Assembly (NCBI RefSeq): GCF_013004105.1
Contig: NZ_CP053085.1
Location: 3,782,001 to 3,846,000 of the forward strand
Length of the DNA stretch: 64,000 nucleotides
Direction of reading: 5' to 3'
From: Gemmatimonas groenlandica
GTDB taxonomy: Bacteria; Gemmatimonadota; Gemmatimonadetes; Gemmatimonadales; Gemmatimonadaceae
Shown here: positions 28,692-30,736 of the stretch, piece after piece
Layout of the letters: each line of letters begins with the position of its first letter
How positions within the stretch are numbered: position 1 is the stretch's first letter
The notes under the pieces: model-generated
Told to the model about the DNA's origin: nothing
The model's database searches: none
The model's input: the letters and a program-made list of their open reading frames with translations, nothing else
Program-made: the position numbers and the translations under genes

Positions 28692-29249
28692 CTACGTAGA
28701 CGCGCTGATCACCAGAAAGCGCGTCCAGTTGGCGGGCACGTCTTCGATGTGCCGCGCAATGATCTCGAGACCGTAGCGTTCGGCTGCCATCTCGCTGGCG
28801 ACCGCGCCAACCGTGCGGTCGTTCAGTTCCGCGACCATTCGCGCAGCGCCGGCGGTGTCGTCATGCGGCGCCGGCTCGAGCCAGCCGTGACGCGCAAAGA
28901 AGATGCGGCACTGCGCGAGGGCCACGGCGTGACTGTGCACGTTGCGCAGCTCGGCGAGCGACGCGCCACGCGGCGCGAGCAAGCACAGGTGAATCGGCAC
29001 CCGCAGTTCACTACGCTCCACCACCTCGATGCCGGCGCTCCGCAGTGCGTCGAGCGCCACCTTCACCGCCCCGATGATCGCATTCTCCACCGGAATCACC
29101 CCATACTCGGCGGCACCGCTGCGCACGCTGGCAATGGCATCCGGGAACGTGCGGCACGGAATCGCGGTCGCGCCGTTCGGCCATTGCTGGCGGATCGCGA
29201 GCTCGCTGAAGGCGCCCAACTCACCCTGAAAGGCGACGCGTGGAATCAT
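28692..29249 (-). CDS. pheA: Prephenate dehydratase, catalytic domain only (no ACT domain)
   Basis: 185 residues from the ATG giving MIPRVAFQGELGAFSE. Prephenate dehydratase converts prephenate to phenylpyruvate in phenylalanine synthesis. Motifs are FQGELGAFSE, YGVIPVENAIIGAV, VHSHAVALAQC, DTAGAARMV, and the catalytic Thr in NWTRFLVIS. The protein stops right after the catalytic domain, whereas most bacterial enzymes (about 280 residues) continue into an ACT domain that gives feedback inhibition by phenylalanine. It is therefore probably insensitive to Phe, or regulated by a separate protein. Divergent from the attenuator-controlled DAHP synthase. Confidence 0.9.
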   Translation of the reverse strand: MIPRVAFQGELGAFSELAIRQQWPNGATAIPCRTFPDAIASVRSGAAEYGVIPVENAIIGAVKVALDALRSAGIEVVERSELRVPIHLCLLAPRGASLAELRNVHSHAVALAQCRIFFARHGWLEPAPHDDTAGAARMVAELNDRTVGAVASEMAAERYGLEIIARHIEDVPANWTRFLVISAST

Positions 29250-29261
29250 GGTTTCAACATA

Positions 29262-29290
29262 TTGACTTGGGGATGCACTCACCGTAGCCT
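29262..29290 (+). promoter_or_regulatory. Predicted promoter of the aromatic leader and DAHP synthase
   Basis: TTGACT at 29262-29267, 17-bp spacer, TAGCCT at 29285-29290. The expected start, 7 bp further on, falls on or next to the ATG of the leader peptide at 29298, so the leader may be translated from a leaderless transcript. The -10 element is weak. Confidence 0.4.
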
Positions 29291-29297
29291 CAATGGT

Positions 29298-29378
29298 ATG
29301 ACGCGTCACCGCTCCGCCCGCTATTGGTATTATACGCCGACCCGCATGGGCCCCGGTGTATTTGGCGTGTGCGACTGA
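29298..29378 (+). CDS. Attenuator leader peptide with Tyr-Trp-Tyr-Tyr
   Basis: A 26-residue reading frame (ATG 29298, TGA 29376-29378) whose residues 9-12 are Tyr-Trp-Tyr-Tyr (codons 29322-29333), with a Phe codon at 29361. It lies between a promoter and a Rho-independent terminator in front of DAHP synthase, the first enzyme of aromatic amino-acid synthesis. Four aromatic codons in a row is the hallmark of ribosome-mediated attenuation: shortage of charged tRNA-Tyr or tRNA-Trp stalls the ribosome and favours the antiterminator. Translation of the peptide is predicted, not shown. Confidence 0.8.
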   Translation: MTRHRSARYWYYTPTRMGPGVFGVCD

Positions 29379-29419
29379 TTCGCTGACGCTCCAACACTGT
29401 GAGGCTCGTGCAATCGCAC
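29369..29419 (+). promoter_or_regulatory. Predicted antiterminator pairing of the aromatic attenuator
   Basis: GTGCGACTG (29369-29377) can pair with CAATCGCAC (29411-29419) with eight of nine base pairs. The second segment covers the loop and half of the 3' arm of the terminator, so the two structures exclude each other. The first segment overlaps the leader stop codon and is covered by a ribosome that finishes the leader, but free when the ribosome stalls at the aromatic codons. Confidence 0.65.
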
Positions 29420-29434
29420 GGGCCTTTTGCTTTT
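29403..29434 (+). terminator. Rho-independent terminator (attenuator) before DAHP synthase
   Basis: GGCTCGTGC (29403-29411), loop AATC, GCACGGGCC (29416-29424): nine base pairs including one T-G wobble, followed directly by TTTTGCTTTT. It ends 62 bp before the aroF-type ATG, and no other gene end on this strand could use it. Confidence 0.85.
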
Positions 29435-30546: not shown

Positions 30547-30553
30547 GACCCTT

Positions 30554-30590
<37 letters not shown>

Positions 30591-30599
30591 CTACAATGA

Positions 30600-30736
30600 C
30601 GCGAAGGTCGCGAAGTTCGCGAAGGTACGCGAAGAACAGCAAAAGAGAAAAGCTTTGAATGAAAAACGCGAAGGGCTCGAGGTTAGACTCGGGCTCCTTC
30701 GCGTGTCTTCGCGTTCTTCGCGGACTTCGCGTGAAC
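30600..30736. repeat. Palindrome of iterated CGCGAAG words (convergent gap)
   Basis: Left arm 30600-30635 carries four CGCGAAG words about 9 bp apart; the right arm 30697-30736 carries the complementary words. Between them sits a compact hairpin, ACGCGAAGG (30666-30674) with CCTTCGCGT (30696-30704), extended inwards by GCTCGAG/CTCGGGC. Fills the 222-bp gap between the convergent aroF and Vgb-like genes and shares words with the palindrome at 26821-26875. It could act as a bidirectional transcription boundary. Confidence 0.8.

Follow-up and report, generated by a model that had tools for sequence, protein, structure and literature searches.

The aroF gene of Gemmatimonas groenlandica, a soil bacterium, codes for one of two DAHP synthases and is very probably controlled by a ribosome-mediated transcription attenuator of the trp/his type. 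Within the window, i.e., the whole 64,000-nucleotide stretch of DNA that was analyzed, the region upstream of aroF, judged by its sequence, is a complete four-segment trp-type attenuator, from which we infer a starvation-responsive regulation of aroF. The features are collected in Table 1.

Table 1. Features of the aroF attenuator region in the window, and the hisG leader of the same genome.
Feature	Position	Strand	Evidence
pheA-type prephenate dehydratase (PF00800), divergent from aroF	28692..29249	-	domain match
-35 box TTGACT, leader promoter	29262..29267	+	sequence; promoter survey of leaders
-10 box TAGCCT, 17-nt spacer, ends 7 nt before leader ATG	29285..29290	+	
Leader ORF MTRHRSARYWYYTPTRMGPGVFGVCD*; ATG at 29298, 26 codons, TGA stop at 29376-29378	29298..29378	+	sequence; aromatic leader also in 108/140 orthologous upstream regions
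Regulatory codons Tyr-Trp-Tyr-Tyr (TAT TGG TAT TAT)	29322..29333	+	aromatic cluster conserved in relatives
1:2 (anti-antiterminator) hairpin; 5' arm directly 3' of the Tyr codons	29332..29361	+	-14.4 kcal/mol
Segment 2, antiterminator 5' arm (GCATGGGCC + CCGG)	29344..29356	+	2:3 pairing energy, covariation
Segment 3, antiterminator 3' arm; 29401-29411 doubles as terminator 5' arm	29397..29411	+	
Segment 4, terminator 3' arm	29416..29426	+	98.4% of 3:4 cells paired, 104 leaders
Terminator T-rich tail	29425..29434	+	sequence; TTTTGCTTTT comes after 29426
aroF (regulated gene), DAHP synthase with N-terminal ferredoxin-like domain PF18152 + PF00793	29497..30546	+	domain matches
hisG leader ORF MQSRHHHHAHRSHGHTGRGASCVPR, window's own genome	L256:1175-1252 = G000:C1 ~3463246-3463323		

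The 26-codon leader with a Tyr-Trp-Tyr-Tyr cluster, which the original prediction had placed before the DAHP synthase gene, is present. Segment 1 lies right after the aromatic codons, segment 2 follows ~10 nt past the last of them, and segments 3 and 4 are the two arms of the terminator. The rho-independent terminator and its T runs were also confirmed: GAGGCTCGTGC-AATC-GCACGGGCCTT forms 11 pairs at 29401-29426 (-19.7 kcal/mol), and with the T-rich tail the element extends over 29401-29434. The antiterminator had been drawn with its 5' arm across the leader stop codon, but the best pairing over 29361-29399 reaches only -6.7 kcal/mol, versus -16.2 kcal/mol for the 2:3 pairing via 29344-29353. 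The arrangement over the stop codon was rejected; the true 5' arm is found further upstream, ~24 nt before the stop codon, and corresponds to leader codons 16-19. In the genus and close relatives the antiterminator stem reaches 13 pairs (29344-29356 with 29397-29411). A small hairpin over the stop codon, inside the antiterminator loop, is found in the window sequence alone and is not conserved. Because the window's terminator has a somewhat lower energy than its antiterminator, function would depend on timing. As a separate observation, the sequence 3' of aroF (30553-30735) contains a CAACAG-like repeat run and, after it, an inverted repeat that is long, imperfect and rich in TTCGCG/CGCGAA.

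Relatives were taken from 41 close genomes, 395 genomes of the phylum, a named genome collection and 108 fetched stretches, and the loci were oriented by translation before the upstream regions were compared. The orthologue set comprised 140 distinct upstream regions (AroF identity of at least 61%, the window's own included), and a leader was defined as an ORF in which a stretch of six codons holds at least three aromatic residues. Such a leader was observed in 108/140 orthologous upstream regions versus 25/700 dinucleotide shuffles, and a leader together with a terminator in 106/140 versus 4/700 (0.6%). With AroF genes below 61% identity, the leader was detected in 12 of 66 and leader plus terminator in 3 of 66. 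All 16 orthologues tested from the genus (g1) carried both elements, and the corresponding counts by family code were 39/43 for the rest of f1, 9/9 for f4, 9/11 for f6, 4/6 for f2, 27/53 for f5 and 0/1 for f9. About a quarter of the orthologues, mostly of family f5, have no recognisable leader; aroF is intact in these relatives, and we read them as losses and not as a refutation of the attenuator. No leader attenuator was found at the second DAHP synthase of the same genomes (0/12 paralogues). The comparison of relatives that the original prediction had proposed bore it out, in that the aromatic codons are conserved and the stems covary (see below), and we conclude from the upstream regions compared that the attenuator has been retained by most of the phylum Gemmatimonadota. 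In a metagenome-assembled genome titled Proteobacteria (Centralia_MAG_106, locus L081), MLGSANWYYYFRCGMKELR and a terminator precede an AroF of 58% identity, with the hairpins differently arranged; this is a possible aromatic attenuator outside Gemmatimonadota.

In the aromatic clusters of the 108 leaders, 292 codons specify Tyr, 105 Phe and 39 Trp. Tyr is present in 107 of the 108 leaders, and is the only aromatic residue of the cluster in 27; Phe occurs in 70 clusters and Trp in 37. The mixed Tyr/Trp sensor that had been proposed is seen in this sequence but does not hold as a general design, because sister species carry RFYY, SYYY, SYYYF or RYWYF. The best reading of these codon counts is a Tyr-centred sensor in which Phe and Trp are optional, with Tyr as the amino acid most likely to dominate the response. 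This reading needs caution, because the Phe-Tyr-Phe leader of Corynebacterium glutamicum reportedly answers to Phe and not to Tyr (PMC11802643).

A promoter scoring at least 8/12, with its -10 box ending 5-12 nt before the start, was found for 79/108 leaders versus 37/1080 shuffles, and for 51 of these 79 promoters this distance is 6-7 nt. A Shine-Dalgarno-like motif precedes 10/108 leaders versus 63/108 for aroF itself; in the class Gemmatimonadetes a functional Shine-Dalgarno has been predicted in only 22% of mRNAs (PMC10783764). Since the -10 box lies mostly 6-7 nt before a start that has no Shine-Dalgarno motif, it is likely that the leader ORF is leaderless.

The spacing of the segments was measured in 107 leaders. 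The distance from the last aromatic codon to segment 2 is 10-11 nt in 53 of them, that from the end of segment 2 to the end of the stop codon is most often ~24 nt, and that from the stop codon to the terminator is mostly 20-30 nt. In the minimum-energy folds, segment 2 is held by the upstream segment 1 in 101/107 cases. The stalled state was modelled with the last aromatic codon in the A site, taking a textbook footprint that extends for 13 nt, counted from the A-site codon's first base, and the covered RNA was removed before folding. Under these conditions the 2:3 pairing forms in 103/107 leaders, and in the ribosome-free state in 49/107.

Covariation was counted on a MAFFT alignment of 104 leaders, over nine 2:3 pairs and nine 3:4 pairs. 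RNAalifold on the mixed alignment returned the terminator only, because one fold cannot display two exclusive structures, and the two sets of pairs were therefore counted separately. The 2:3 positions were paired in 90.0% of cases, versus 78.1 ± 0.7% after shuffling, and a one-base slide of one arm reduced this pairing to 48%; the 3:4 positions were paired in 98.4%. Double changes in the 2:3 pairs amounted to 125 cells versus 48 ± 5 in the shuffled controls, counts that are inflated by related sequences. One such pair is A-T in 54 leaders versus G-C in 38, another is C-G in 43, G-C in 31 and T-G in 18, and a third is G-C in 71 versus A-T in 24, where segment 4 varies in step with segment 3. 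On the AroF tree the states of these example pairs require a minimum of 12 to 16 changes. A test of independent pairs, confined to well-supported branches, went almost wholly in the expected direction, but its 1-6 pairs were too few to reach 0.05. In an alignment-free swap test, a leader's own segments 2 and 3 gave a mean of -18.2 kcal/mol versus -14.5 kcal/mol for permuted partners (z = -12). The 2:3 and 3:4 stems share segment 3, so that antiterminator and terminator are mutually exclusive, and both covary. We conclude from the aligned leaders that segments 2, 3 and 4 covary three ways.

These results bear on what is conserved in the leader. An arrest of the ribosome by the nascent peptide, as in the TnaC or Erm leaders, or an action of the peptide in trans, would find support in the C-terminal half PTRMGPG, which looks conserved in the genus. 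It is very unlikely, however, given that the same RNA is read in three phases across clades while the peptide changes completely: segment 2 is in phase 2 in 79 leaders, in phase 1 in 20 and in phase 0 in 5, and therefore the RNA is conserved, not the peptide. Across clades no general residue was found beyond the aromatic cluster. Furthermore, in one leader upstream of aroF (L006, genome G022) segment 2 is flanked by a one-base loss on its 5' side and a compensating one-base gain on its 3' side; this RNA stays intact and the original frame is regained, but PTRMGPG has become RRPAWAPG. The same leader has a GTG start 6 nt after its -10 box, and it can be regarded as a natural recoding experiment. 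A T-box, a riboswitch or an RNA-binding protein might act as the sensor in place of the translating ribosome, terminator/antiterminator switches being common to all such systems; we consider this highly improbable. The Rfam search gave no match at gathering or relaxed thresholds, the best sub-threshold hit being Leu_leader with 18.2 of 50 bits. Accordingly, none of the families Trp_leader, Phe_leader, His_leader and Leu_leader scored above gathering, and the Rfam models of the T-box core and stem I gave no match. No conserved ligand-binding core was seen, and in-frame aromatic codons stand at a constant distance from segment 2.

The hairpin itself is a genuine terminator structure in an intergenic region, and it could be thought to end the transcription of an upstream gene or to insulate aroF, with the leader ORF being incidental. 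Against this, the upstream gene is divergent; with no plus-strand gene upstream, the terminator serves no other transcript, and the leader, its own promoter and segment 2 co-occur with the terminator, so that we give this explanation very little weight. Least probable of all is a chance juxtaposition of a short aromatic frame and an ordinary terminator. Chance alone can produce a short ORF with an aromatic cluster, as the 25 shuffles that contained one reveal, but the occurrence of leader plus terminator in 106 orthologues versus 0.6% of shuffles, the three-way covariation and the fixed spacing all argue against a coincidence. Phylum-wide conservation, as read from the upstream regions, has already refuted a chance origin. 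Ribosome-mediated attenuation of aroF, as originally predicted, is strongly supported by anatomy, covariation and conservation, whereas the placement of the antiterminator, the generality of the Tyr/Trp sensor and part of the claimed novelty did not stand.

In the attenuation mechanism that we propose, transcription would begin no more than a few bases from the leader ATG, and, as the promoter geometry suggests, the ribosome would start on the 5' AUG without a Shine-Dalgarno sequence. A shortage of charged tRNA for Tyr (or Phe or Trp) would stall the ribosome on the aromatic codons, and its footprint would hide segment 1 and end where segment 2 begins. Segment 2 could then pair with the newly made segment 3, the terminator would not form, and aroF would be transcribed. 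With charged tRNAs the ribosome would pass through and leave, the 1:2 and 3:4 hairpins would form, and the 3:4 terminator would halt transcription ~65 nt before aroF. A ribosome sitting at the stop codon would leave a little of segment 2 exposed, so that termination is expected to lean on the re-forming of 1:2. In an integrating reading, a delay at a single one of the several aromatic codons would suffice for read-through. We lean, with moderate confidence, towards a broader proposal: a phylum-ancestral attenuator whose probably leaderless mini-ORF integrates Tyr, Phe and Trp tRNA charging to gate the entry into the shikimate pathway, within a wider use of (nearly) leaderless attenuators in Gemmatimonadota.

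Other amino acid operons were analyzed in the same genomes. Upstream of hisG, a His-rich leader ORF and a strong terminator were observed in 13 of the 15 loci examined (including L251-L264), and by its sequence this is a second attenuator of the same design as that of aroF. The trpE upstream regions of 15 relatives (L236-L250) contained no Trp-rich leader with a terminator; therefore, aromatic attenuation sensing seems to sit at aroF and not in the Trp branch. The genes ilvB and leuA passed the cut-off in few genomes, and their upstream regions showed no convincing leader. At the cut-offs used, ilvB- and leuA-family genes were missing from most genomes of the genus (G000-G010), perhaps because of branched-chain auxotrophy or because the enzymes are divergent.

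Within this deep and little-studied phylum, the codons, the arm sequences and even the reading phase drift among the leaders, which makes them a natural experiment on what attenuators must conserve. The features that must be kept appear to be the distance from the codons to segment 2 and the three-way pairing, not the peptide. The Tyr-centred, probably leaderless design is testable in cultured strains.

A survey of Actinobacteria found no phenylalanine or tyrosine RNA elements (PMC1262725), and in 2010 leader peptides were known only in Proteobacteria and Actinobacteria, besides that survey's own finding in Firmicutes (PMC2965389). Our literature search, which subscription papers mostly escaped, retrieved no report joining Gemmatimonadota, attenuation and leader peptides. 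An aromatic attenuator on a DAHP synthase is not new as such, the C. glutamicum aroR-aroF system being a precedent; the apparent novelty lies in the phylum, in a codon set centred on Tyr and in the depth of conservation.

The aroF attenuator shares with E. coli trpL the four-segment logic, with 1:2, 2:3 and 3:4 hairpins and stalling at codons for the pathway end product. The trpL leader is preceded by a Shine-Dalgarno sequence, and its segment 2 comes downstream of the stop codon; the aroF leader, in contrast, is probably leaderless and contains segment 2 within its ORF, which ends ~24 nt beyond that segment. The ribosome at the E. coli trp stop codon covers segment 2, which would not quite be the case here, and the regulated target is the first shikimate enzyme rather than a terminal branch. 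The C. glutamicum aroR-aroF attenuator was reportedly described by Neshat et al. in 2014. There, an aroR leader (Phe-Tyr-Phe) precedes aroF as an aromatic attenuator on a DAHP synthase (PMC4046766, PMC11802643). The likeness lies in an aromatic-codon leader before one of two DAHP synthases and in ribosome-mediated attenuation; that system belongs to another phylum and reportedly responds to Phe and not to Tyr, whereas here Tyr dominates and the Trp and Phe codons vary by species. The Streptomyces lividans leaders trpL1, leuL1 and ilvL are leaderless, with TAnnnT -10 boxes 4-9 nt before the start (PMC8079986), and resemble the probable absence of a 5' UTR in the aroF leader. They differ in belonging to Actinobacteria and in serving other amino acids, and the available text of that work describes no DAHP synthase attenuator (PMC8079986).
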